Shown here: piece after piece, positions 5,510-63,561 of the stretch
How positions within the stretch are numbered: position 1 is the stretch's first letter
How the letters are laid out: the number at the start of each line of letters is the position of its first letter
Source of the DNA: Pseudomonas sp. IAC-BECa141
Lineage (GTDB): Bacteria; Pseudomonadota; Gammaproteobacteria; Pseudomonadales; Pseudomonadaceae
NCBI RefSeq assembly: GCF_020544405.1
Contig: NZ_CP065410.1
Location: forward strand, 186,001 to 250,000
Direction of reading: 5' to 3'
Length of the DNA: 64,000 nt
The notes under the pieces: generated by a model
What the model was told of the DNA's origin: nothing
The model's input: only the letters and a program-made list of their open reading frames with translations
Database searches by the model: none
Position numbers and translations under genes: made by a program

Positions 5510-5754
5510 ATGGAAAACCCGACGCACAGCCTGCCATCCCTGTTCAAGCAACTCGGTCTGGACAACGACCCGGTCAGCATCGACCAATTCATCGCCACCC
5601 ATTCCCCCTCAAACCCGAACTGCACCTGTGCGACGCGTTCTTCTGGACAAAGAGCCAGGCGGATTTCCTGCGGGATGAGATTCTCGATGATGCGGATTGG
5701 GCGGAGGTGGTGGATCAGTTGGATGTGATGTTGAGGAAGGGGCGGGGAATGTAA
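5510..5754 (+). pseudogene. DUF2789 family protein, interrupted by a -1 frameshift
   Basis: DUF2789 proteins are short (about 80 residues) and of unknown function. ATG 5510 follows cgaaggagcagaaca (AAGGAG Shine-Dalgarno). The frame reads MENPTHSLPSLFKQLGLDND and reaches IATHSP, then turns to nonsense after the C run at 5604-5608. The next frame supplies LKPELHLCDAFFWTKSQADF and ends ADWAEVVDQLDVMLRKGRGM with TAA at 5752-5754. Adding one C to the run gives an intact protein of about 81 residues. Either the gene is broken or a base is missing from the assembly; two similar cases nearby favour the second. Confidence 0.7.
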
Positions 5755-5810
5755 AAAAAAATGATCGAAAAGACCGAAATGTAAAAAAAACTTGTGGGTT
5801 GTAAAAAAAA
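5751..5810. promoter_or_regulatory. Three helically phased A-tracts (probable intrinsic DNA bend)
   Basis: The string gtaaaaaaaa occurs at 5751, 5781 and 5801, that is at spacings of 30 and 20 bases, close to whole helical turns. Shorter A4 runs lie near 5768 and 5817. Phased A-tracts curve DNA. The element sits just after the DUF2789 stop and about 70-130 bases upstream of the -35 of the marR-efflux operon, where it could assist promoter function. Confidence 0.5.
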
Positions 5811-5876
5811 CAGCGCAAAAGTCAGGGTGAGATAAATTTTCTGAATTCACCTTCGGACATGAATTTGTTTCAAAAC

Positions 5877-5906
5877 TTGACTGAATTTCCCCGCCAATGC
5901 GATATT
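5877..5906 (+). promoter_or_regulatory. Predicted sigma70 promoter of the marR-efflux operon
   Basis: TTGACT (5877-5882, five of six consensus bases) and GATATT (5901-5906, four of six) are separated by 18 bases. Transcription would start at about 5913, inside the palindrome at 5911-5924. Confidence 0.5.
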
Positions 5907-5910
5907 GATA

Positions 5911-5924
5911 GTTAGCAAACTAAC
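5911..5924. promoter_or_regulatory. Palindromic operator candidate (GTTAG-CAAA-CTAAC) for the MarR regulator
   Basis: A perfect 5-bp inverted repeat with a 4-base centre lies immediately after the predicted -10 and six bases before the first ATG of marR. MarR proteins bind such sites as dimers. Bound protein here would block initiation, so autorepression of the whole operon is likely. Confidence 0.5.
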
Positions 5925-5929
5925 AGTGT

Positions 5930-6397
5930 ATGCATTCCCTCGTGCCGAATAACCTCGACGCTCTTCAGATGAACATCAGCAGTGCCATGGTGGTGGCCGC
6001 CAGGCATTGGCGGAAGATCTGCCAGACCACGCTGGTCAATTATGGAATTTCCGAAGCCTGCGCCGTCCCGTTGTTGATGATCGGGCGCTTGGGCGAGGGT
6101 GTGCGCCAGGTGCAGGTGGCGCAGGCGGCGGGGATGGAGTCGCCGTCGCTGGTGCGCCTGCTCGATCAGTTGTGTCACGCCGGTTTTGTCTGCCGCACCG
6201 AAGATGCCCATGACCGACGCGCCAAATGCCTGAGCCTGACCGACGCCGGCCGTGAGCTGGTGCAAGCGGTGGAGGCGCAACTGGTGCGGCTGCGTCATGA
6301 AGTGCTCGAAGGCATCGACCAGCGCGATCTGGAAGCTACGCTTCGGGTACTGAGAGCTTTTGAGGCGGCCACTCCGCCAACGGTGATCAATCCGTGA
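5930..6397 (+). CDS. MarR family transcriptional regulator
   Basis: This 155-residue winged-helix regulator has the recognition region VRQVQVAQAAGMESPSLVRLL and the wing with the conserved DAHDRRAKCLSLTDAGRE (MarR D-x-R-x3-L-T-x-x-G). It is the first gene of the efflux operon and overlaps the next gene by a GTGA. MarR proteins of this context release DNA when they bind small aromatic acids; the ligand here is unknown. ATG 5930 lies only six bases after the palindromic operator and has no Shine-Dalgarno. ATG 5969 (MNISSAMVV) is a possible later start. It probably represses its own operon. Confidence 0.88.
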   Translation: MHSLVPNNLDALQMNISSAMVVAARHWRKICQTTLVNYGISEACAVPLLMIGRLGEGVRQVQVAQAAGMESPSLVRLLDQLCHAGFVCRTEDAHDRRAKCLSLTDAGRELVQAVEAQLVRLRHEVLEGIDQRDLEATLRVLRAFEAATPPTVINP

Positions 6398-11039: not shown

Positions 11040-11078
11040 CAGTGCACATCGCTAGCGCAGGTCTAGGGGAAACCAATA

Positions 11079-51999: not shown

Positions 52000-53013
52000 A
52001 TGAACTTTCGTCTCAAACGTGTCATCAGTCTGTTTGCCGCGCCGGCCCTGGCGGGTCTGCTGGCGTTCTCTGCCCAGGCCGACGAGCTCAAGGAAATCAG
52101 GATTGCCGTGCCTGATCTGAGCGCCGGCACCCAGCACAGTGGCGGGGGCATCGTGGACGTGCTGCGCGATCAGCAGATCTTTGAAAAGGCCTTCGCCGAT
52201 CAGGGCATCAAGATTCAGTGGAGCTTCTTCAAGGGCGCTGGACCGGTGATCAACGAGGCATTCGCCAACGGCCAGGTGGACCTGGCCTATCTCGGAGACC
52301 TGGCGGCGATCATCGGCAAGTCCAACGGACTGGATACGCGCCTGCTCAGCGCCAGCGCCCGGGGAGTGAAGCAATACCTCGGCGTGGTGCCGGGTTCCGG
52401 GATCAAGACGTTGCAGGATCTCAAGGGCAAGCGCGTGGCGATCTTCCGGGGTACGGCGACCCAGTTGTCGTTTGACGCGGCGCTGGCCAGCGTAGGCCTG
52501 AGCGAGAAGGACGTGAAAGTGATCAACCTCGATTTCAACGCAGCGGTGGCGGCGTTGGCGGCGAAGCAGATCGATGCGTCGTGGGGTAGCTCCGGGCTGA
52601 CTGCATTGCAGGCCAAGGGCCTGGCCGAGTTGCCCCTGAACACCAAGGATCTCGGCGGTGCAGGCAGTGTGCAGTCGGTGCTGGTAGGAACCGGCAAGTT
52701 TGTCGATGGGCATCCGGACGCCGTGGCGAAGCTGCTCAAGGCGCAGCAACAGGCAGTGGAGTGGCTGACTCAGGACGGCAACAAGGACGCCTACGTGCAA
52801 CTGGTCTCGGGGCTGGCGAGCTACCCGCCGGTCATTCTGACCCAGGATCTGAAGGATCAGAACCTGAGTGAAGTGTTCCCCTCGACACTGGATCCTCTGT
52901 TCCTCGAAAACCTGCAGGGAAAAGTGGATCTGGCGGCGCAGCAGAAGCTGATCCGCAAGCCGTTCAAGGTGAACGAGTGGGTGGCGCCGGAGCTGGCGGC
53001 TGCGAAGCTTTGA
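52000..53013 (+). CDS. atsR: Sulfate ester-binding protein AtsR
   Basis: AtsR is the periplasmic receptor of the sulfate ester importer. The 337-residue protein has a signal peptide (RVISLFAAPALAGLLAFSAQA) and an SsuA/NitT-type binding fold: EIRIAVPDLSAGTQHSGGGI, GPVINEAFANGQVDLAYLGD, GVVPGSGIKTLQDLKGKRVA. GGAG lies nine bases before the ATG. It is divergent from atsB, so receptor and membrane subunits come from opposite transcripts that share one control region. A long hairpin at 53021-53051 ends it. Confidence 0.9.
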   Translation: MNFRLKRVISLFAAPALAGLLAFSAQADELKEIRIAVPDLSAGTQHSGGGIVDVLRDQQIFEKAFADQGIKIQWSFFKGAGPVINEAFANGQVDLAYLGDLAAIIGKSNGLDTRLLSASARGVKQYLGVVPGSGIKTLQDLKGKRVAIFRGTATQLSFDAALASVGLSEKDVKVINLDFNAAVAALAAKQIDASWGSSGLTALQAKGLAELPLNTKDLGGAGSVQSVLVGTGKFVDGHPDAVAKLLKAQQQAVEWLTQDGNKDAYVQLVSGLASYPPVILTQDLKDQNLSEVFPSTLDPLFLENLQGKVDLAAQQKLIRKPFKVNEWVAPELAAAKL

Positions 53014-53020
53014 GTCATGC

Positions 53021-53051
53021 GGTCATTCCCGCGCAGAGCGTGGGAATGACC
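53021..53051. terminator. Long inverted repeat, probable bidirectional terminator between atsR and lysR
   Basis: GGTCATTCCC and GGGAATGACC pair around a REP-like centre (gcgcagagcgt). The element fills the 39-base gap between two convergent genes. It lacks a T run, so termination is inferred from position. Confidence 0.55.
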
Positions 53052-53052
53052 C

Positions 53053-53988
53053 TCAAACCGCGACGCTGACTTCCTGTTTGTCCACCGCCACCAGCGTCTC
53101 GATCATCGCCCGCGCCGCCGGTGACAGCCGGAATCCCGTACGGCTGACGATCCCGCACCGCGCATTCATGCTCTCCAGGTTCTGCGGCAGATTGCGCCAG
53201 TGCAGCAGCGCCAGCGAGCCTTGGGCGATGTCCTCGACAAAGGCCTCTTCGGTGCCGACGCCGATCGCGTTGGACTGCAGCACCACTTTCACCAGCGCCG
53301 GAAAATGCTCGGTCTCGATGGTCGGTGAGAAATCGATCCGGCCGCTGAGATTCGCCAGCAATTTGCGAATGCCCGGCGGAATCAGCGTGGTCGCCAGCGG
53401 GTAGTCGAACATGTCGTTGGTCGACAGGCTTTCCTTGGCCAGCAGCGGATGCCCCGGCCGGCAGAAAAACACTCCGCGCTTGGGAGTCAGCGGCTGGGTC
53501 TGGAAGTTCGGGTCGGACTCGAAATGGCGGATGTCGGCGATGAAGAATTCGATCTCCTCGCGGCTCAGGGCGCGGCTGAGTTTTTCCCAGTTATCTACTT
53601 GAAAACAGGTGCGCACTTTCGGGTGCGCGTTGATGAATTGCGCCACCGCGTCCGGCACCAGTTTCACCGCTGGCGCCGGGCCGCAACCGAAGTGCAGTTC
53701 GCCGGCGTCGAGCTTGGTCATCTGCGTCACTTCGGCGCTGAGCAATGCCGCGCCTTGCACCAGCGTCAGGGCGTGCTGCAGCACCACCTGGCCTTCGGGC
53801 GTGGGGCGCAGATCCTTGTTGCCACGATCCACCAGCACACAGCCGAACTCCTGCTCCAGCCCTTGAATACTGCGGCTGAACGCCGGTTGAGTGATGCCCA
53901 TGGCGTCGGCCGCGCGGACAAAACTGCGGTGTTCGTTGAGGGCGATGAAGTAGCGCAACTGGCGAAGATCCATATGCTTTTCCGGCAT
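53053..53988 (-). CDS. LysR family regulator (SftR-like candidate)
   Basis: The 311-residue regulator has the LysR N-terminal helix-turn-helix (LRQLRYFIALNEHRSFVRAA, GITQPAFSRSIQGLE) and an effector domain. ATG 53988 (MPEKHMDLRQL) or 53973 (MDLRQL) may be used. It is divergent from atsK across 166 bases containing GCATTT and AAATGC arms. In P. putida S-313 a LysR protein, SftR, governs sulfate ester genes including atsK. This gene and the LysR gene at 58723 are close paralogues (shared GELHFGCGPAPA/GELRFGCGPAPA and FFIADIRHFE/FFVADTRHFE), so which is the SftR equivalent is undecided. Confidence 0.85.
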   Translation of the reverse strand: MPEKHMDLRQLRYFIALNEHRSFVRAADAMGITQPAFSRSIQGLEQEFGCVLVDRGNKDLRPTPEGQVVLQHALTLVQGAALLSAEVTQMTKLDAGELHFGCGPAPAVKLVPDAVAQFINAHPKVRTCFQVDNWEKLSRALSREEIEFFIADIRHFESDPNFQTQPLTPKRGVFFCRPGHPLLAKESLSTNDMFDYPLATTLIPPGIRKLLANLSGRIDFSPTIETEHFPALVKVVLQSNAIGVGTEEAFVEDIAQGSLALLHWRNLPQNLESMNARCGIVSRTGFRLSPAARAMIETLVAVDKQEVSVAV

Positions 53989-54154
53989 CCTAAAAATAGC
54001 TCGAAGGCATTTGCGACGAGGGCTGCCTGAGGTTTTAAATGCAAGCTCTTATTCCGTCAACGAAGCATGTGAATATCTATTAGATGTAAATGGAATATAG
54101 ATAGAGCGTTGTTTCGCTGCCGTCCAACCGCAAGCAGTCGATGAGGGTCTACCC

Positions 54155-55075
54155 ATGAGCAATGCCGCACTCGCTGTAAAACCCGCTGTCCACGCGCTGG
54201 ACATTCATCCGGTGGCCGGCCGCATCGGCGCCGAAATCCGTGGCGTGCACCTGTCCGGTGAGCTGGATGCCGCGACGGTTGAAGCCATTCAACAGGCGCT
54301 GATCCAGTACAAGGTCGTGTTCTTCCGCGAGCAGACCCAGCTCGACGATCAACGTCAGGAAGCCTTTGCGCATTTGCTGGGCGAGCCAGTGGCGCACCCG
54401 ACCGTGCCGTCCCGCGAGGGCACCCGTTATCTGCTGGAACTGGACGGCGCCGAAGGGCAGCGCGCCAACTCCTGGCACACCGACGTAACTTTCGTCGATG
54501 CCTACCCGAAAGCCTCGATCCTGCGTTCGGTAGTGGCCCCGGCATTCGGCGGCGATACCCTTTGGGCGAACACCGCGACCGCGTACAACGAACTGCCGAC
54601 CGAATTGCGCGAGCTGGCGGACAAGCTGGTGGCCGTGCACAGCAACGAATACGACTACGCCGCTGTGAAGCCGGATGTGTCGGCGGAGAAGCTTGAGCGC
54701 TATCGCAAGATCTTCACCTCGACGGTTTACGAGACCGAACATCCGGTGGTGCGTGTACACCCGATCAGCGGCGAAAAGAGCTTGCTGCTGGGGCATTTCG
54801 TCAAGCGCATCAAGGGCTATTCCCAGGCTGATTCGGCGCATCTGTTCGGCTTGCTGCAAAGTCATGTGATCCGCCAGGAGAACGTCGTGCGCTGGCGTTG
54901 GAAGGCCGGTGATGTGGCGATCTGGGATAACCGCTCGACGCAGCATTATGCGATTGATGACTACGGCACTCAGGATCGGGTGGTGAGGCGGGTGACGCTC
55001 AAAGGGGAAGTGCCGGTCGGGGCGAATGGGCAGCGTAGTCAGACCATCAAAGGCGCAGAAATCGTCGGCGTCTGA
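54155..55075 (+). CDS. atsK: Alkylsulfatase AtsK, Fe(II)/2-oxoglutarate dioxygenase
   Basis: AtsK cleaves alkyl sulfate esters oxidatively to an aldehyde and sulfate. The 306-residue protein belongs to the TauD family with His108-x-Asp110 (SWHTDVTF) and His264 (STQHYAIDDYG), the same positions reported for P. putida AtsK, plus the 2-oxoglutarate arginine in DRVVRRVTL. The opening VHALDIHPVAGRIGAEIRGV also matches AtsK closely. It is divergent from the LysR gene. A composite repeat follows. It complements AtsA: aryl esters by hydrolysis, alkyl esters by oxidation. Confidence 0.93.
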   Translation: MSNAALAVKPAVHALDIHPVAGRIGAEIRGVHLSGELDAATVEAIQQALIQYKVVFFREQTQLDDQRQEAFAHLLGEPVAHPTVPSREGTRYLLELDGAEGQRANSWHTDVTFVDAYPKASILRSVVAPAFGGDTLWANTATAYNELPTELRELADKLVAVHSNEYDYAAVKPDVSAEKLERYRKIFTSTVYETEHPVVRVHPISGEKSLLLGHFVKRIKGYSQADSAHLFGLLQSHVIRQENVVRWRWKAGDVAIWDNRSTQHYAIDDYGTQDRVVRRVTLKGEVPVGANGQRSQTIKGAEIVGV

Positions 55076-55078
55076 CTG

Positions 55079-55199
55079 ATCGTTCCCACGCTCTGCGTGG
55101 GAATGCAGCCCGGGACGCTCTGCGTCCCAAAGCGGACGCAGAGCGTCCATTGAGGCATTCCCACGCGGACGGTTCGACGCCTCGACGTGGGAATGATCA
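55079..55199. repeat. Composite palindromic repeat with four hairpins
   Basis: Outer arms (gttcccacgctctgcgtggg at the left, and a right unit of cattcccacgcgg, an extra stretch gttcgacgcct, then cgacgtgggaatga) enclose gggacgctctgcgtccc and ggacgcagagcgtcc. The organisation matches 40536-40632. It lies between convergent atsK and the second sulfatase. Confidence 0.8.
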
Positions 55200-55202
55200 C
55201 TG

Positions 55203-56813
55203 TCACCACACGCCGATCTGAACCATCTTCTCCGTCTCCGGCTCCCCATAACGAAACCGCTGCCCACGCAAATCAATCTCCTGATGACTGATGGTGGTAC
55301 GCCGCTTCAGTCCGCGCACCCACTCGAACAAATACCCCGCATGTTCCTCGCGCACCGCCGCATATGCCGGATCCGCGCCCAGATCCTGCAGCTCCTGCGG
55401 GTCATTCAACAGATCGAAAAGCTGCGGCCGGAAGCCGTCGTATGCCAGGTACTTCCAGCGCTCGCTGCGCACCATGGTCATGCGGCAGCGGTCGATCGGC
55501 TGGCCCAGTCGCTCACGTGCCGGGGCCTGGAAGGCATAGTCGTATTCGCTGATCGCATAGCGGCGCCAGTCAGGACTTTCACCGTGCAGCAGTGGAATCA
55601 ACGAACGACCTTCAAGGCGATGTTCGGCTCCCGTCACACCCAGCGCTTCGAGAAAGGTCGGCACGCCATCGATGGTTTCCGCCAGGCGCTCGTCCACCGT
55701 GCCCCGTGTGACGTCCGCCGCTGCACGCGGGTCGCGCACGATCAAGGGAACGCCCACTGCCTGCTCCAGCAAAAACTCTTTCTCGCCCAGCCAGTGATCG
55801 CCCAGAAAGTCGCCGTGATCGCTGGTGAACACGATCAGCGTGTCTTCCCAGCGGCCGGTGCCTTGCAGGAAATCGAACAGCCGCCCCAACTGATCATCGA
55901 CCTGTTTGACCAGGCCCATGTACGTCGGGATCACGTTCAGTCGTACCGGATCTTTGGAGAAATTCAGGCTTTCCTCATGCTGGCGAAAGGCCTGATAGAC
56001 CGGGTGGTCGCTTGGAGAGGCATTACGTACCGGTTCGAGAATCGATTTCGTACTGTACAAGGTGTGGTACGGAGCCGGTACGATGTAAGGCCAGTGGGGT
56101 TTGATATAGGACAGGTGTAAAAACCACGGTTTTTCACCTTGCTCACCGATGAAGTCGATGGCTCGATTTGTAGTGTAGACAGTCTCTGAATGTTGCTCGG
56201 GAATTCGCGCTGGCAAATGGGCATTGCGCATTTGCCAGCCGCTGAGGATTTCGCCGTTGTCGCCTTCGGCAGCGTTGGCCCAGTCGTGCCAGGGGTTGCG
56301 TCCTTCGAAACCCTGCTCGCGCAGGTAATGGGTGTACGGCGCGGATTCGCGTTTGTCGTCGAACAGCGGGTCGTCGGGGAAGATGCCGTCGTGGCGAAAG
56401 TACGGCTCGAAGCCGACTTCGTTAAGCACTTCGGCCTGGGCGCTTTCGGGGTTGATCGCCAGCCGCTGCAAGGCATCGACGTTGGCCGTGGCGTGGGTCT
56501 TGCCGACCAGCGCAGTACGAATGCCGTGGGGGCGCAGGTAATCACCGATGGTCAGTTCTTCCAGCGGCAGCGGCACGGCGTTCCACGCCACTTGATGGCT
56601 GCTGACATAGCGCCCGGTATAGGCCGACATCCGTGACGGGCCGCAGATCGTGCCTTGAGTGTAGGCGCGGCTGAAACGCACGCCGGCGGCGGCCAGGCGA
56701 TCGATGTTCGGAGTGTGCAGGTGCGGGTGGCCGTAGCAGGACAGGTAATCGCGGCGCAGTTGATCGCACATGATGTACAGCACGTTGCGCACAGGGTTTT
56801 GCGGGTTGGACAT
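55203..56813 (-). CDS. Sulfatase family hydrolase (arylsulfatase / phosphonate monoester hydrolase-like)
   Basis: This alkaline phosphatase-superfamily enzyme has the metal site VLYIMCDQLRRD, the formylglycine motif CGPSR (Cys about 57), the GKTHAT lysine/histidine, the IKPHWPY histidine, and the TSDHGDFLGDH pair. It is only distantly like AtsA and resembles the phosphonate monoester hydrolase branch (long APYHTLY segment). Such enzymes often cleave sulfate and phosphate esters promiscuously; in this locus a sulfate ester is the likelier substrate. ATG 56813 has GGTGA just upstream; a GTG at 56822 is possible. No signal peptide is seen. Confidence 0.85.
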   Translation of the reverse strand: MSNPQNPVRNVLYIMCDQLRRDYLSCYGHPHLHTPNIDRLAAAGVRFSRAYTQGTICGPSRMSAYTGRYVSSHQVAWNAVPLPLEELTIGDYLRPHGIRTALVGKTHATANVDALQRLAINPESAQAEVLNEVGFEPYFRHDGIFPDDPLFDDKRESAPYTHYLREQGFEGRNPWHDWANAAEGDNGEILSGWQMRNAHLPARIPEQHSETVYTTNRAIDFIGEQGEKPWFLHLSYIKPHWPYIVPAPYHTLYSTKSILEPVRNASPSDHPVYQAFRQHEESLNFSKDPVRLNVIPTYMGLVKQVDDQLGRLFDFLQGTGRWEDTLIVFTSDHGDFLGDHWLGEKEFLLEQAVGVPLIVRDPRAAADVTRGTVDERLAETIDGVPTFLEALGVTGAEHRLEGRSLIPLLHGESPDWRRYAISEYDYAFQAPARERLGQPIDRCRMTMVRSERWKYLAYDGFRPQLFDLLNDPQELQDLGADPAYAAVREEHAGYLFEWVRGLKRRTTISHQEIDLRGQRFRYGEPETEKMVQIGVW

Positions 56814-57135
56814 GGGGTTCACCGGTCAGAAAGACAGGTGAGGTTTTTCGCTTTCGGCGAGGGTGTTCGGCAAGTGCATTCGGGGAATGCCTTCGATGCA
56901 GCAATTGCATAGTGCAGAGAGGGAAAAATCCTTAGAACACAGGTGATTTTTGAGTCTCTTTGATTAAGCAATGGCCAGCTAACCAAGCTATCATCCCTAG
57001 GCATTCTTGCGTGCGGCAGCCCTTGGCCGATTCAAATTTTGCTAATACAAATCTCCTGATGCCCCAGGTTTGGTAGTGTTAACGTCGCTAATGGCGACTT
57101 TATCTGTGCCGCTGCGCTCTTATCTCGAGGACACC
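56814..57135. promoter_or_regulatory. Intergenic region between the sulfatase and the ATPase cassette, 322 bases
   Basis: Near the sulfatase end lie two perfect inverted repeats: GCATTC-GGG-GAATGC (56876-56890) and ATGCA-GCAAT-TGCAT (56896-56910). They suit a LysR operator for the leftward sulfatase gene. From about 56930 the sequence becomes A/T-rich, marking the left edge of the foreign-looking cassette, whose rightward promoter should be here. I could not define -35 and -10 boxes with confidence. Confidence 0.5.
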
Positions 57136-58182
57136 ATGCTCAAGCAACTCCACATAAAAAACTTCACAGTCTTTGAAGAGGCCGATCTCCAGTTCGCAAA
57201 GCATTTGAACGTGATTGTGGGGGAAAATGGTGCAGGCAAGACGCATCTCTTGAAGCTGGCGTACGCCGGTTTGGCGACTAGCTCTGAAGAAAGTAACAGG
57301 CCGGTGGCTCTCTCTATAGAACCGACCAAGGCGACGTTGCAGCTGCGTATGGCAGAAAAATTGATCGGTGTTTTCCGCCCCGAATCCTTAGGTCGGCTGG
57401 CTCGACGTAGGAGGGGGCGAGAACGGTGTGATATCAGGCTCTGTTTTGATAAGAATGAATATGATCTGGCTTTCAGCTTTGCAACTAACAGCAAGACGGA
57501 AGTCAGTGTGGAGCATCTTCCTCATCGTTGGTTAAAAGCTACACCTACTTATTTACCTACTCGTGAGTTATTGAGTATTTACCCAAACTTTCTCGCGGTT
57601 TATGACGGTCACTATCTAGAGTTTGAAGAAACATGGAGAGATACCTGTCGCCTGCTTGGGGGACTGCTGCGTAAAGGACCTACCGAAGAAAGGGTTAGGG
57701 AGTTGCTTGCCCCGTTGGAAGCCGCTATGCAGGGCAGCATCGAGCTTGATAAAAGTGGGCGATTCTATCTGCGCAATAACAGTGGGCGAATGGAAATGCC
57801 GCTGGTGGCGGAAGGTCTGCGCAAATTGGGAATGTTAGCCCGGCTCATCAGTACCGGTGCTTTGCTCCATCAAGGTTATTTGTTTTGGGATGAACCCGAA
57901 GCTAATTTGAATCCTCGGCTGATCAAGCAAGTAGCGAGGACTATCGTTGACTTGAGCGCCAGTGGAATTCAAATTTTTGTAGCAACTCATAGTTTGTTTT
58001 TGTTGCGCGAGTTGGAAATTCTTCTGGCCAATAGATCTCTGGATACCGCGTTTTTTGGTTTGCATTCCAGCGAAATCGGCGTTGTCGTTCAGCAAGGCAA
58101 GGGGCTGGAAGATATAGGCGATATCACAGCGCTTGAAGAAAGTCTTCAACAGTCAGATCGCTATCTGGAACTGGAGTCCTGA
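57136..58182 (+). CDS. AAA/ABC-type ATPase of a putative defence cassette
   Basis: The 348-residue protein is a RecF/AAA_21-like ATPase: [11 protein letters not shown], Walker A GENGAGKT (29-36), the [10 protein letters not shown] segment (141-150) common in this class, a signature-like AEGLRK, Walker [14 protein letters not shown] (248-260, catalytic Glu253), and the switch histidine in ATHS (283-286). It lacks the long coiled-coil arms of SMC proteins. ATG 57136 follows GAGG. The next gene starts two bases after its stop. The G+C is visibly lower than the flanks, with many AT-ending codons, which suggests recent transfer. Paired ATPase-nuclease genes are common in phage defence (Gabija, Septu, PARIS), but I cannot assign this to a named system. 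Confidence 0.82.
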
Positions 58183-58183
58183 T

Positions 58184-58687
58184 ATGCCGAGATTGGATGT
58201 AGACGGGCTTTTTTTTAGTTTTCCCGAGGAGTGGCGGGCTAGCAAATTTGATGAGTGGGGATACTATCGAAATCATTTCTTGAAGCAGCGCGACAAGATT
58301 AAAGCGATAGATATTCTGGTTCTCTCTCCAGAAAACACTGCATTTTTGGTAGAGGTAAAAGATTATCGTCATCCGCAAGCGGTTAAACCTTCGGATCTCC
58401 CAGAGGCCATCGCCAATAAAGTCTTCTGTACTCTAGCTGCGCTTTTACCAGCTCGACTGCATGCCAGTACCGAGGACGATGAGAGAGAACTGAGTCGGGA
58501 TGTCTTGAATTGTCAAAGGCTTCAGATAGTCGTGCACATCGAACAGCCTCAAGCTCATTTACCGAAGGTAGATTTGGCTGATGTGAAGCAAAAGCTGAAA
58601 AAGCTCCTGCGTGCTATTGATGCTCACCCCAAGATTGTCAGCATGACCAAACCTCAAGGTATGGTTTGGAGTGTGTCTGCCCGTTAG
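58184..58687 (+). CDS. Putative PD-(D/E)XK nuclease partner protein
   Basis: I do not recognise a named family for this 167-residue protein. It contains a clear PD-(D/E)XK-type core: AIDILVLSPENTAFLVEVKD, with Asp43 on one strand and Glu57-Val-Lys59 on the next, the spacing seen in Holliday junction resolvase-like and restriction nucleases. Upstream FSFPEEW and a helix precede this core; after it come QAVKPSDLPEAIANKVFCTL and a C-terminal helical region. GGAG lies eight bases before ATG 58184, two bases after the ATPase stop, so the pair is coupled. The low G+C continues to its end. It is likely the effector of the ATPase; whether it cuts DNA or RNA cannot be told. Confidence 0.7.
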   Translation: MPRLDVDGLFFSFPEEWRASKFDEWGYYRNHFLKQRDKIKAIDILVLSPENTAFLVEVKDYRHPQAVKPSDLPEAIANKVFCTLAALLPARLHASTEDDERELSRDVLNCQRLQIVVHIEQPQAHLPKVDLADVKQKLKKLLRAIDAHPKIVSMTKPQGMVWSVSAR

Positions 58688-58722
58688 TCTGCCTCTGGGT
58701 TCATTGGTGTGAAAGTTGAAAT

Positions 58723-59667
58723 TCAAACGGCCAGATTTGCCAGCGAGCAGACCTCCTCTTCCACCGCATCGATTGCCTTGATCTGCTCGATCATCGCCTC
58801 GGCCAACGGCGACAGGCGATACCCGGCGCGGCTGACAATTCCGTAACGGGTGTAAAGCTCATCCAGATCATCCGCCAACCCCTTGACCTTCAAACACACC
58901 AACTCGCCACGAGCCTGATGCAGCGCATCCGAATAGGCACCGACGATGCCGATTGCATCGGAGCGCAGCACCACGCCGAGCAGGCTGGCGCTGTTTTCAC
59001 ACTCCACGTTCGGGACAAAATCCGGGCGGCCACTGAGGTCGACAATGACCTTGCGCAGGTTCGGCGGACGAATGCTCACGGCCAGTGGATAACTCATCAA
59101 TTGCTCTGCCGTGACTTGCTCGAAAGCGCCCAGCGGATGCCCGGCGCGGCAGCAGAAATGCCATTTGCGTGGCCGCAAGCGGTGGGTCAGATAATCCGGG
59201 TCCGCCTCGAAGTGCCGAGTGTCGGCGACGAAGAATTCGAACTCCTCGCTCAGCAGTCTTTTGCTCAGGCTCTGCCAGTCATCGACCTGGTAGTGCACCC
59301 GCGCTTTCGGGTAGCGGCCGATGAAGCTGCCGATCGCTCGCGGGATCAATCCTGCCGCCGGCGCCGGGCCGCAACCGAAGCGTAATTCCCCCGCCTCCAG
59401 CCCGTTGAACTGGCTGATCTCGTTGGCCATCTGCTGCGCACCGCTGACCAGTCGCCGCACGTGTTCAAGCAGCACCTGGCCCTGTTTGGTCGGCGGCAAT
59501 TCCTTGCGCCCGCGATCCACCAATTGGCAACCGACGCTGTGCTCCAGCGCCTGAATGCTGCGACTGAACGCCGACTGCGACAGGTTCACCGCCTGCGCGC
59601 CGGCGACAAAGCTGCGTTGTTCGGCAAGGGCGATGAAGTGTCTGAGTTGGCGCAAGTCGATATGCAT
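58723..59667 (-). CDS. LysR family regulator (paralogue of the 53053 regulator)
   Basis: The 314-residue LysR protein has IDLRQLRHFIALAEQRSFVA and NLSQSAFSRSIQALEHSVGC at the N-terminus and a standard effector domain. It is divergent from the TonB receptor gene across 165 bases that contain three ATGCAT sites, one overlapping its own start codon. It probably regulates the receptor and arylsulfotransferase genes and itself. It shares many blocks with the LysR at 53053, so one arose by duplication or they serve different sulfate esters. Confidence 0.88.
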   Translation of the reverse strand: MHIDLRQLRHFIALAEQRSFVAGAQAVNLSQSAFSRSIQALEHSVGCQLVDRGRKELPPTKQGQVLLEHVRRLVSGAQQMANEISQFNGLEAGELRFGCGPAPAAGLIPRAIGSFIGRYPKARVHYQVDDWQSLSKRLLSEEFEFFVADTRHFEADPDYLTHRLRPRKWHFCCRAGHPLGAFEQVTAEQLMSYPLAVSIRPPNLRKVIVDLSGRPDFVPNVECENSASLLGVVLRSDAIGIVGAYSDALHQARGELVCLKVKGLADDLDELYTRYGIVSRAGYRLSPLAEAMIEQIKAIDAVEEEVCSLANLAV

Positions 59668-59692
59668 TTTTCACATAAAAAATATCCGGGAA

Positions 59693-59709
59693 ATGCATTG
59701 GATATGCAT
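59693..59709. promoter_or_regulatory. LysR operator candidate ATGCAT-TGGAT-ATGCAT
   Basis: Two ATGCAT hexamers five bases apart form a 17-base imperfect palindrome in the lysR/TonB receptor gap. A third ATGCAT (59662-59667) overlaps the lysR start codon. Confidence 0.5.
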
Positions 59710-59832
59710 TAGGTCGACTCCTTATAAAGGCAATCTCTTATGCAGTAAATCTTTGTAAAAACATAAATAAATAACTTAAAAGAATATGCAGTGCGGTTGA
59801 TGTCTGCGTGTTTTTTGACCAGGAGCAGCCCC

Positions 59833-62193
59833 ATGAGTCCGTTGAATATCGCTTCACCGCCGCCGCCACGACGGCTCAAACATCTGCCTCTGGCCCTGTT
59901 GCTGGCGGGGAGTGCCATTTGGAGCCACGGCTACGCCGCTGAAGCGCAAACCCCTGCGCCGGCACCGGCAGACAAGGCCACGAGCGCCACTTCGCAACTG
60001 GAAACCGTGACCGTCACCACCCGCCGTCGCGAAGAAAGTTCTCAGGATGTGCCGACGCCAATGAGCGTGGTCAGCGGCCAGACGCTAGAGACGCAAAGGG
60101 TCTACCGGATTCAGGATCTGCAGCAGCTGGTACCCAGCGTCAACGTCGCCTACATGCATGCACGCCAGTCCAGCGTGTCGATCCGGGGCCTGGGCAACAA
60201 CCCGGCCAGCGATGGTCTGGAAGGCAGCGTCGGGCTGTACATCGACAACGTTTATCTGGGTCGCCCGGGGATGGCGGTGTTCGACCTGATGGACATCGAA
60301 CAACTCGAAGTCCTGCGCGGGCCGCAAGGGACGTTGTTCGGCAAGAACACCACCGCCGGGGTGATCAACATCAGCACCCGCGCGCCGAGTTTCACCCCGG
60401 AACGCAGCATCGAAACCTCGTTCGGCGAGGACGGTTACTTTCAGACCAAGGGCACGCTGTCCGGGCCGCTCAACGATCAGTTGGCCGGACGCATATCTGC
60501 CTATCGCACTCGCAGCGACGGCGACATCAAGAACGAATTCAACGGCCATGATCTGAACGGTGGTTCCCGCGACGGTTTCCGGGCGCAGTTGCTGTTCAAG
60601 CCCAACGAAGACTTCAATCTGCGCTGGATCGGTGACTACAACGAAGAGGATTCCAGCGCCGGCACCCGCGTGCTGTTCAACACCGGGCCGACCATCAATG
60701 GCGTCAATCTCTACTCGACCCGAGCCGCCGCTGCTGGCGCGACACTGGTCAACGGCTCGCACCGCAAAGTCAATCTGGACAGCGACCAGCACGTCACCGT
60801 GCATCAGGGCGGCACGTCGGTGGAGGCCAACTGGACCCTGCCGAGCGACTTCACCCTGACCTCGGTCAGCTCCTACCGCTTCTGGAATTTCACCCCGCGC
60901 AACGATGATGGCCTCAACGTGGCGGCGACCTACAACGCCGGGGTGTCGGTGGAGGACAAACAGTATTCCCAGGAATTTCGCCTGGCATCGCCCAAGGGCG
61001 AGTTCTTCGATTACGTCCTCGGTGCCTACTATTTCGGCTCGGACCTGGACAACAAATCCTTCGCCTATTACGGCCCACAGGCGGACATCTGGAACGGCAC
61101 GCCACGGGGCGCACTGGCCAACGTCAACAGCGTCGGCCGTGGCCATATCAAGACCGACAGCTTCGCGCTGTTCGCCCAAGGCACCTGGCACCTGACCCCG
61201 CGTCTGGATTTCACCGCCGGGGTGCGTGGCACTTATGAAGAGAAGAACGCCTGGGTCAATCGTGATGCGCCGGTGGGTGGCGCAGCGGTCACCGGCGCCG
61301 CAGCCAATGCGCGACGCGGCCGCACCGGCGCCTACGATTCCGGCGACCTGAACCAGTACAGCTCCAGCCCGTCCGGATTGCTCAACCTCAGCTATCGCTT
61401 CACCGATGATCTGCTCGGCTACGCCACGCTGTCCCACGGCGAGAAATCCGGTGGGGTCAACCTCGTGGTCGGCTCGGCTCCTACCGCTGGCGCCGACTCG
61501 CTGCTGATCGGCACCGAGCGCGCCAACAACGCCGAACTCGGCTTCAAGAGCACGCTGTGGGATCGGCGTTTGCAGCTCAACGCCAACGTGTTCTGGACTC
61601 AGGTCAACGCTTACCAGACCAACGCCTATGACGACGTCAACCGGGTGCAATACCTGACCAACGCCGGCTCAGTGCGCTCGCGCGGGGTGGAGTTCGACAG
61701 CACCGTGATCCCCGTGCGCGGCCTGACGCTGAACTTCAACGGCTCGTACAACGACGTCAGTTATCTCTCGTACAAGGACGCGCCGTGCCCGCCGGAAGTC
61801 AGCCAGGCCCCGGGTGCTCCGGCCTCTTGCGACCTCAGCGGTCATCAGGTGGTCGGCGCTTCGAAATGGATCGGCAACGCCAACGGCAAGTACGAATGGA
61901 ATCTGGATAACGGCCTGCAACCTTACGTCACCGGCAGCTACGCATTCCGCTCCAAAGCGGTGGGCACGGTCGAGGATTCCGACTACGGCCAGATCCCGAG
62001 CTACGCGGTGGTCAACCTCTCCACCGGCTTGCGCGGCGACTTCAATCAGGGCCAGTGGGATGTCTCGCTGTGGCTGAAAAACGCCTTCGACAAAACCTAC
62101 TACACGACCCTGTGGACTGGCGGCAACGGCGGCTATGAAGGCCTGCTCGGTACGCCGCGCACCCTCGGCGTCACCGGTCGCTACGACTTCTGA
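59833..62193 (+). CDS. TonB-dependent outer membrane receptor, sulfate-ester type (SftP-like)
   Basis: The 786-residue receptor has a signal peptide (LALLLAGSAIWSHGYAAEA), a TonB box-like LETVTVTTRRREE, a plug domain (PTPMSVVSGQTLET to GPQGTLFGKNTTAGVINIST) and a 22-strand barrel ending LGVTGRYDF. It looks like the broad class that imports non-siderophore ligands. The same-strand arylsulfotransferase 24 bases downstream and the divergent LysR suggest uptake of sulfate esters, like SftP described in P. putida. ATG 59833 follows AGGAG. Confidence 0.88.
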   Translation: MSPLNIASPPPPRRLKHLPLALLLAGSAIWSHGYAAEAQTPAPAPADKATSATSQLETVTVTTRRREESSQDVPTPMSVVSGQTLETQRVYRIQDLQQLVPSVNVAYMHARQSSVSIRGLGNNPASDGLEGSVGLYIDNVYLGRPGMAVFDLMDIEQLEVLRGPQGTLFGKNTTAGVINISTRAPSFTPERSIETSFGEDGYFQTKGTLSGPLNDQLAGRISAYRTRSDGDIKNEFNGHDLNGGSRDGFRAQLLFKPNEDFNLRWIGDYNEEDSSAGTRVLFNTGPTINGVNLYSTRAAAAGATLVNGSHRKVNLDSDQHVTVHQGGTSVEANWTLPSDFTLTSVSSYRFWNFTPRNDDGLNVAATYNAGVSVEDKQYSQEFRLASPKGEFFDYVLGAYYFGSDLDNKSFAYYGPQADIWNGTPRGALANVNSVGRGHIKTDSFALFAQGTWHLTPRLDFTAGVRGTYEEKNAWVNRDAPVGGAAVTGAAANARRGRTGAYDSGDLNQYSSSPSGLLNLSYRFTDDLLGYATLSHGEKSGGVNLVVGSAPTAGADSLLIGTERANNAELGFKSTLWDRRLQLNANVFWTQVNAYQTNAYDDVNRVQYLTNAGSVRSRGVEFDSTVIPVRGLTLNFNGSYNDVSYLSYKDAPCPPEVSQAPGAPASCDLSGHQVVGASKWIGNANGKYEWNLDNGLQPYVTGSYAFRSKAVGTVEDSDYGQIPSYAVVNLSTGLRGDFNQGQWDVSLWLKNAFDKTYYTTLWTGGNGGYEGLLGTPRTLGVTGRYDF

Positions 62194-62217
62194 TCGATCC
62201 TTCAAGGAGCCGCAATC

Positions 62218-63561
62218 ATGTTGCCCATCACAACCGCTTTACCGGTGTTGTTGTCCGGCGCAGTGCTCAGTGCCGGGGCGCTCGCCGCGCCCAGCGTCTA
62301 CCCCACCGGCGTTACCCGTTACGACCCGGCCAAGGCCTTCAATCAATATGTGATCTTCAGCGGTGCCGACAAGCAGACGCACCTGATCGACATGAACGGC
62401 AATGAGGTGAAGAGCTGGCCGCAATCAGGTTTTCCCTCGGCAATCATCGACCCGAAACTGGTCGGTGGAGAGCGCGGCCATGTGTTGCTGCAGCTGAGCG
62501 AAAAGGATCCCGGCAAGTTGGGCTCTGCCGGCAACGGCCTCGGCAATCAGAGCATCGGCGAGCTGGACTGGAACGGCAAAGTCGTCTGGCAGTGGGGCGA
62601 CCAGGCACCCGGTGGTGCTGCGCAACAGCATCACGATCAGCGTCGCCTGAGCAACGGCAACACCGTGGTGCTGGCGAACAAGGTGCACAAGGTCAAAGGC
62701 TTCAAGGTGCCCGAGGTGATCGACGATGCGATCTACGAGGTCAGCCCCGCGGGCGAGGTGAAATGGCAGTGGCTGGCGTCGGATCACTTGAACGAGTTCG
62801 GCTTCACCGCCGAACAATTGAAGCTGGTACGTGCCAGCGAAAATCCGGATTACCTGCACATCAACAACCTCAGCCTGGTCGGGCCGAACAAGTGGTTCGA
62901 TGCCGGCGACAAGCGCTTCAACCCGGACAACCTGCTGCTCGATTCGCGCAACGCCAATTTCATCGCGATCATCGACAAACACAGCGGCAAAGTGGTGTGG
63001 CGCCTGGGGCCGAACCTGCCGTTGGCCAATCCGAAAACCGCGCAGCAGATTCCGCGTCCGGTAGACCAGTTTGTAGGTCAGCATGACGCGCACATCATCC
63101 CGGCGGGGTTGCCCGGCGCGGGCAATCTGCTGGTGTTCGACAACCAGGGTTTGGCGGGTTACCCGAACGTCACGCTGGGGCTGATTTCCGGTTCGCGGGT
63201 GCTGGAAATCGACCCGGTGAAAAACGAAATCGTCTGGCAGTACAGCGCCGCCAATTCGAAGCAGCCGGGGTGGGCGTTCTACAGCTCGTTCATCAGCAGC
63301 GCGCGGCGCTTGCCCAACGGCAACACGTTGATTGATGAGGGCATGAACGGGCGATTTTTCCAGGTCACGGCCAATGGCGAAAACGTCTGGGAATACGTCA
63401 GCCCTTATTTGGGCAAGGCACCGGGCAGTGACGCGATCAGCAATTGGGTCTATCGGGCCCTTCCTGTGAGTTATGACTGGGTTCCTGCGGAAACGCCGCG
63501 TTCGGAGACGGCAGTGATTGCGCCGGCCATTGGTGTGCAACAAACCAATGCCAGTCGTTAG
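62218..63561 (+). CDS. Aryl-sulfate sulfotransferase (ASST family), secreted
   Basis: The 447-residue protein has a signal peptide (ALPVLLSGAVLSAGALAAPS) and a beta-propeller of the ASST type with repeated Trp-rich blades (GELDWNGKVVWQWGDQ, KVVWRLGPN, EIVWQYSA, ENVWEYVSPY). ASST enzymes move sulfate between phenols without PAPS through a catalytic His; candidates are the HHDQRR and GQHDAH histidines. AAGGAG precedes the ATG. It likely forms an operon with the TonB receptor, so imported aryl sulfates may be processed in the periplasm. Confidence 0.85.
   Translation: MLPITTALPVLLSGAVLSAGALAAPSVYPTGVTRYDPAKAFNQYVIFSGADKQTHLIDMNGNEVKSWPQSGFPSAIIDPKLVGGERGHVLLQLSEKDPGKLGSAGNGLGNQSIGELDWNGKVVWQWGDQAPGGAAQQHHDQRRLSNGNTVVLANKVHKVKGFKVPEVIDDAIYEVSPAGEVKWQWLASDHLNEFGFTAEQLKLVRASENPDYLHINNLSLVGPNKWFDAGDKRFNPDNLLLDSRNANFIAIIDKHSGKVVWRLGPNLPLANPKTAQQIPRPVDQFVGQHDAHIIPAGLPGAGNLLVFDNQGLAGYPNVTLGLISGSRVLEIDPVKNEIVWQYSAANSKQPGWAFYSSFISSARRLPNGNTLIDEGMNGRFFQVTANGENVWEYVSPYLGKAPGSDAISNWVYRALPVSYDWVPAETPRSETAVIAPAIGVQQTNASR

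Follow-up and report, generated by a model that had tools for sequence, protein, structure and literature searches.

A solitary HEC-02 ATPase-nuclease cassette in a Pseudomonas chromosome, a candidate phage defence system

What is a compact pair of genes, one encoding an ATPase and the other a small nuclease, doing in a low-G+C patch of a Pseudomonas chromosome? The pair lies in a 64,000-nucleotide stretch of Pseudomonas sp. IAC-BECa141 (NZ_CP065410.1, positions 186,001 to 250,000; hereafter the window, in whose numbering its coordinates are given), which is part of a single-contig genome of 6.22 Mb. Both genes are on the + strand, as are all features described within them; the ATPase gene occupies 57136-58182 and the nuclease gene 58184-58687, with one base between stop and start codons. 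An earlier reading of this DNA (the original prediction) had proposed that the pair may be an undescribed, distinct type of defence system. When the proteins were compared with PADLOC models, however, the ATPase matched the HEC-02 model PDLC04146 over residues 1-347 (E 7.5e-152; the best 25 of its 152 matches were listed), and the nuclease matched the HEC-02 model PDLC04145 over residues 5-164 (E 4.4e-42; one of 7 matches at E up to 1). Because both genes match HEC-02 models, in each case over nearly the full length of the protein, the pair is not a new kind of system, and the proposal of an undescribed one was rejected. Judged by sequence, it is HEC-02, a catalogued candidate anti-virus system, with the same gene order, ATPase and then nuclease, as in its relatives, which match HEC-02 models too. 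Our preferred reading, to which we assign a probability of roughly three in four, is that the cassette is a solitary copy of HEC-02 that spread horizontally and entered an intergenic site, and that it aborts phage infection through a nuclease gated by the ATPase.

HEC-02 (Hma-embedded candidate 2, PADLOC-DB 2.0.0) reportedly goes back to a 2024 preprint by Payne et al. (doi 10.1101/2024.01.29.577857). According to the available portions of two papers (PMC10855318, PMC12111858), the HEC name derives from the arrangement in which the ATPase is located within an Hma operon; the window copy differs in being solitary and outside any Hma operon. Accessible parts of the literature also state activity against phage for HEC-04 and for several HEC systems, HEC-06 included, and equate HEC-05 with BrxU. 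A paper on HEC-02 itself was not found in the literature searched for HEC-02, Hma-embedded candidate and the sibling names. Within PADLOC, the HEC-02 models PDLC04145/04146 disagree with PDLC04213/04214 and PDLC04218-04229 over which subunit is A and which is B, the ATPase being labelled B in one model and A in others.

The ATPase (348 residues, ATG start) is ABC/SMC-head-like (AAA_21), and the motifs that the original prediction had read from it are all present. From a genome-collection scan that gave 520 confirmed ATPase relatives, the best 80 loci were used, and conservation was counted over 80 aligned rows that take in the window's own. Walker A (GENGAGKT, residues 29-36, 57220-57243), the Walker B and D-loop segment (DEPEANLNP, residues 252-260, 57889-57915) and the switch (H-loop) histidine H285 (57988-57990) are intact; K35, D252, E253 and H285 are each kept in 80/80 rows, and the signature-like residues E226, G227 and K230 are invariant as well. 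Structure comparison placed the fold nearest to the SMC, Rad50 and PtuA heads, and the closest named relatives sit in Pseudomonas.

Directly after this gene, as had been noted, comes a 167-residue protein (ATG start) with the triad D43...E57-V-K59, V58 standing between the last two catalytic residues (codons 58310-58312, 58352-58354 and 58358-58360, spanning 58310-58360). The motif and the structural model both indicate a PD-(D/E)XK fold, and the Pfam matches at E up to 1 included no HNH family for the nuclease and no TOPRIM family for either protein, in agreement with the effector class originally proposed. The nuclease falls below the Pfam cut-off; Foldseek on this protein alone gave weak matches (best E 0.063 in the PDB and 0.004 in a viral library), and a sequence search for relatives of solved structure found none. 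Among 133 partner sequences, which are not all independent and count the window's own copy twice, D43 is kept in 131, and E57, K59, K79 and D23 in 132 each. As to the triad exceptions, locus L032 has G for D43, and L042 keeps all three residues in the correct frame. The L032 nuclease, encoded downstream of position 11044 in a Methylobacter-type genome, is otherwise intact and has naturally lost its first catalytic aspartate. When the window genes were compared with those of L005 (Pseudomonas sp. Au-Pse12), differences at codon positions 1/2/3 were 0.17/0.06/0.52 in the ATPase and 0.24/0.18/0.58 in the nuclease, a pattern that points to purifying selection on both proteins; synonymous divergence (dS) was saturated. 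The conservation of the ATPase motifs and of the triad is, in these alignments, far above chance, and the cassette is genuine and probably working.

Pairing of the two genes was examined at the 80 loci, with the partner class of every locus judged by eye. An intact nuclease gene adjoins the ATPase gene downstream in 66/80, including L078 and L083, whose partners are recognisable by eye and were missed by tblastn. The partner is cut by a contig end in three loci (L043, L049 and L063) and disrupted in seven, through a stop codon, a frameshift or a deletion within the gene (L029, L033, L046, L047, L054, L059 and L064; the breaks in L047 and L064 lie near a contig end). In L084 the ATPase gene is frame-shifted, and its partner was not found downstream; nor was a partner found downstream of the ATPase in L016, L052 and L061. 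The last two (ATPase from 10001 on) are Hma-embedded, without a nuclease gene between the ATPase and the HmaC-like gene, and there the HEC-02 ATPase may act alone or with Hma proteins.

Together with the DNA upstream of them, the two genes make up an inserted segment of about 1.81 kb (56911-58722, no strand assigned), flanked by what we take to be a sulfatase-like gene and a LysR-type regulator gene. Its G+C content is 47.7%, compared with 61.9% across the remaining window; among 5856 stretches of the same size outside the cassette (10-base steps), the lowest value was 57.1%, and none came down to 47.7%. Third-position G+C is 0.50 in the ATPase gene and 0.46 in the nuclease gene, versus 0.73-0.80 in seven measured neighbour genes. 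The low G+C content named in the original prediction is real and confined to the cassette. Moreover, when 55203-60400 was used as a query against 57 genomes, one of them the source of the window, a cassette-free site with the flanks together was recovered from 9/56 other genomes (G007, G011, G016, G019, G023, G029, G032, G033 and G034), the aligned parts being separated by 14-124 bases as against about 1.8 kb in the window. Among the relatives with an empty site, G016 and G029 are the most similar in DNA, and their sulfatase proteins are 98.7% and 97.8% identical to that of the window. Several aligned empty sites carry an inverted pair of short G+C-rich elements, presumably of the kind called REP in Pseudomonas. 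Such REP-like elements are seen at the empty sites of L093 and L095-L099, opposite the window junctions 56911 and 58723, and may have been the target of the insertion or have been replaced by it. The list of open reading frames (ORFs) contained no integrase or transposase ORF in 56911-58722; shared repeats of at least 8 bases were absent from the insertion ends (longest seen, 7 bases), and searches found no near DNA match to 56600-59700 on plasmids and no sigma-70-like promoter in 56700-58900. L005 has a cassette copy at the same site as the window; third-position differences between the two amount to 0.52-0.58 within the cassette, compared with 0.39-0.41 for three neighbouring genes, a comparison confounded by differing G+C, and the L005 copy may be an old shared insertion or a second insertion.

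HEC-02 is patchy in every group sampled. Counting the carrier used as the centre of each sample, nuclease matches were obtained in 3/194 genomes around the window's own, 3/60 genomes of the order around a cyanobacterial carrier, 5/61 genomes of a Chlorobium-type family and 13/81 genomes of a Methylobacter-type family, where eight of the matches were strong (E 1.2e-27 or lower) and the other five weak or partial. In the ATPase tree (80 rows), the 14 phyla require 21 label changes, the minimum possible being 13. Members of a phylum tend to group together, though imperfectly, a pattern compatible with vertical inheritance in some lineages and transfer in others; more than one label change is no proof of transfer. 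Plasmid copies of the ATPase were found in Pseudanabaena, Sulfuricystis and Paracoccus, and two of the three records match the nuclease too; one plasmid copy has a toxin-antitoxin pair next to it and, at a greater distance, a type ISP restriction enzyme. On plasmid NZ_CP112875.1 (L149, 6001-7574), the pair has a DUF1257 gene on one side and a DUF2997 gene on the other; Hsp70, GrpE and AAA ATPase genes surround it on the same strand, and it looks embedded in an operon other than Hma. In the viral contig collection, one nuclease locus was confirmed and the ATPase was found at nine loci, three of them at 50-55% identity; phage records gave two distant matches to the ATPase and, at E 1e-5, none to the nuclease. 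Given these scarce matches, the idea that the system is as a rule phage-borne was rejected.

The genomic neighbourhood was then considered. By tblastn, the ATPase is in an Hma-like operon at 7/80 loci (L045, L052, L061, L076, L080, L081 and L082), a lower bound because many contigs are short; at these loci it stands between Hma-methylase-like and HmaC-ATPase-like genes, or next to whatever part of these genes is present on the contig. The PADLOC models for HmaA, HmaB and HmaC match at L061, the sole Hma-type locus scanned. In the other 73 loci there was a single match, at L039, short and weak, to the HmaC-like query and nearly 10 kb off. Most HEC-02 copies found thus stand outside Hma operons. 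Neighbours were surveyed at 20 loci, all of those outside Hma operons on contigs longer than 100 kb (22 in total) except L007 and L077, taking up to three proteins of 120-1200 residues per side (n=119, one of 120 having been dropped under a residue limit), with 113 proteins at least 50 kb away on the same contigs as controls and a PADLOC cut-off of E 1e-40 or better. Two PADLOC families were represented among the 119 neighbours, compared with 16 among the 113 controls. Each family was matched by one member, and since the output lists families and not proteins, the members number 1-2/119 near the cassettes and 1-16/113 in the controls, and many control families are methyltransferase models that possibly match the same protein. 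Among the homologues, whose neighbours the original prediction had suggested surveying for defence genes, seven are in Hma-like operons, and the tested solitary loci show no defence enrichment. Defence-island context was rejected as support, and its absence at these 20 loci weighs against a role in defence; a housekeeping role, in turn, is disfavoured by the patchiness and by the empty sites. Because the tested solitary copies are outside defence islands, searches based on neighbourhood would overlook them; the available portion of the DefensePredictor paper makes the general point that co-localisation searches cannot find systems outside defence islands.

How might such a cassette abort infection? 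We propose that two ATPase heads would dimerise on ATP, like Rad50, SMC or OLD-type heads, and that the dimer would hold the nuclease restrained via the conserved C-terminal tail of the ATPase. A phage cue, either a DNA structure derived from replication or a phage protein, would alter the ATPase state and free the nuclease, which would then cut nucleic acid (phage DNA, host DNA or RNA) and so abort the infection. The window offers a clean, intact, chromosomal example, with cassette-free relatives, of a system whose mechanism was not found described in the literature searched. The nearest described parallel is WonAB of the WASA-1 prophage of V. cholerae, an OLD-type ABC ATPase with a PD-(D/E)XK nuclease that acts by abortive infection. 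In the parts of that report that were available (PMC12137116), translation stops without genome degradation, and the authors suggest rRNA or tRNA as the target; WonB overproduction is toxic, simple sequestration is ruled out by the authors, and WonB is predicted to bind C-terminal extensions of WonA, which resembles the tail docking proposed here. The essential WonA residues K34, R182, E300 and H333 named there would correspond, from spacing alone, to K35, R143, E253 and H285 of the window ATPase, although WonA is longer between key residues (K to E, 266 versus 218) and has C-terminal extensions. The two-gene pairing is shared with WonAB but is found in other systems too, and WonAB, compared here by description and residue spacing, is prophage-borne, whereas the window cassette is chromosomal and solitary. 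If the parallel holds, ABC-ATPase sensors with small PD-(D/E)XK effectors would form one broad family.

The candidate docking site is the conserved tail at residues 332-343 (58129-58164), in which L333, Q339 and R342 are kept in 79, 80 and 78 of 80 rows. The last 18 ATPase residues have mean predicted local distance difference test (pLDDT) scores of 56 and 53 when modelled alone, yet they include near-invariant residues. In five ATPases (L043, L062, L066, L071 and L078) a QYDRE tail replaces QSDRY/F, and these are exactly the loci with the WWIEIK(D/N)C form of the nuclease; four of them are in one clade of the ATPase tree (100/99), and L043 is in another (98/91 fork). This coincidence suggests, with modest confidence, that the tail binds the nuclease and moves with it; our confidence is modest because the tail is also kept at loci without a partner and because the L043 nuclease is cut by a contig end. 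As a tentative and rather doubtful extension, the tail might serve as an exchangeable docking key that forms a single module with the nuclease and can be transferred with it onto other ATPase bodies. On this reading, solitary HEC-02 cassettes would be a class of defence islets lying outside defence islands and missed by island-based discovery.

Other known systems resemble the pair less closely. Lamassu (LmuA/LmuB) combines an SMC-like ATPase with an effector, in some cases a PD-(D/E)XK nuclease; LmuB is described in the accessible text (PMC10586767) as Rad50-like, with a zinc hook in many but not all cases, and usually a third protein, LmuC, is present. The 348-residue window ATPase lacks a CPxC zinc-hook motif, and no Lamassu model was among the best 25 of 152 PADLOC matches of the ATPase or the 7 of the nuclease. 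The PtuB protein of Septu is an HNH nuclease. The window pair, with its PD-(D/E)XK partner, differs from both Septu (PtuAB) and the PtuAB of retron Ec78/Eco7, and the best PtuA model matched the ATPase at E 1.1e-12, versus 7.5e-152 for HEC-02. For Gabija, PARIS or OLD, a TOPRIM domain would be expected, and the Pfam matches of neither protein included one. PD-T4-4, described in the available literature text as similar to WonAB, gave the best non-HEC match listed for the ATPase (E 1.9e-19); the nuclease, with 7 PADLOC matches at E up to 1, had none to PD-T4-4_B.

Could the pair serve the host instead? A Rad50/RecF-like ATPase with its own nuclease might form a genome-maintenance module acting in DNA repair, as the fold of the ATPase and the lack of defence enrichment at the 20 solitary loci would allow. 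Some lineages also share flanking genes and form tree clades, which indicates that the pair can persist long; four Methylobacter-type loci lie beside one gene set (the shared genes presumably being trpE/trpG), and four cyanobacterial loci beside another (the shared gene being, we assume, purD). A repair module would, however, hardly be confined to 3/194, 3/60, 5/61 and 13/81 genomes, and the nine relatives with an empty site, the foreign composition and the seven Hma-like loci also speak against it, so that we consider this role quite unlikely. It is likewise unlikely that the pair is primarily a toxin-antitoxin-like or anti-plasmid module, in which a nuclease toxin held by the ATPase would stabilise a replicon or kill plasmid-bearing cells, with phage defence secondary. 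The tight operon, the plasmid copies and the toxicity of WonB overproduction, in the portion of that report available, agree with such a module, as do the seven broken or deleted nuclease genes beside an open ATPase frame, which would be expected of a costly nuclease. The opposite decay class is under-sampled, however, because loci were chosen by their ATPase, and many loci come from draft assemblies, two of the breaks (L047 and L064) being close to a contig end. Moreover, the window copy is chromosomal and solitary, and simple sequestration was, in the accessible text, ruled out for WonAB by its authors.

A truly distinct, unnamed defence type would fit the fact that no mechanism of HEC-02 was found in the literature searched and that the nuclease scores under the Pfam cut-off. 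We consider it very improbable given the nearly full-length PADLOC matches of both proteins and, as far as the accessible descriptions go, the same domain pairing in WonAB and Lamassu. A horizontally acquired HEC-02 cassette that aborts phage infection remains our preferred reading.

Elsewhere in the window, another sharp G+C dip was seen at 5601-6000, where 200-base segments starting at 5601, 5701 and 5801 have values of 0.49, 0.41 and 0.43; it holds short overlapping ORFs only, without a clear gene. Around the cassette, the genes at 52000-63561, which we take to encode a periplasmic binding protein, a dioxygenase, the sulfatase, two LysR regulators, a TonB receptor and an arylsulfotransferase-like protein, look like an organic-sulfur utilisation cluster.
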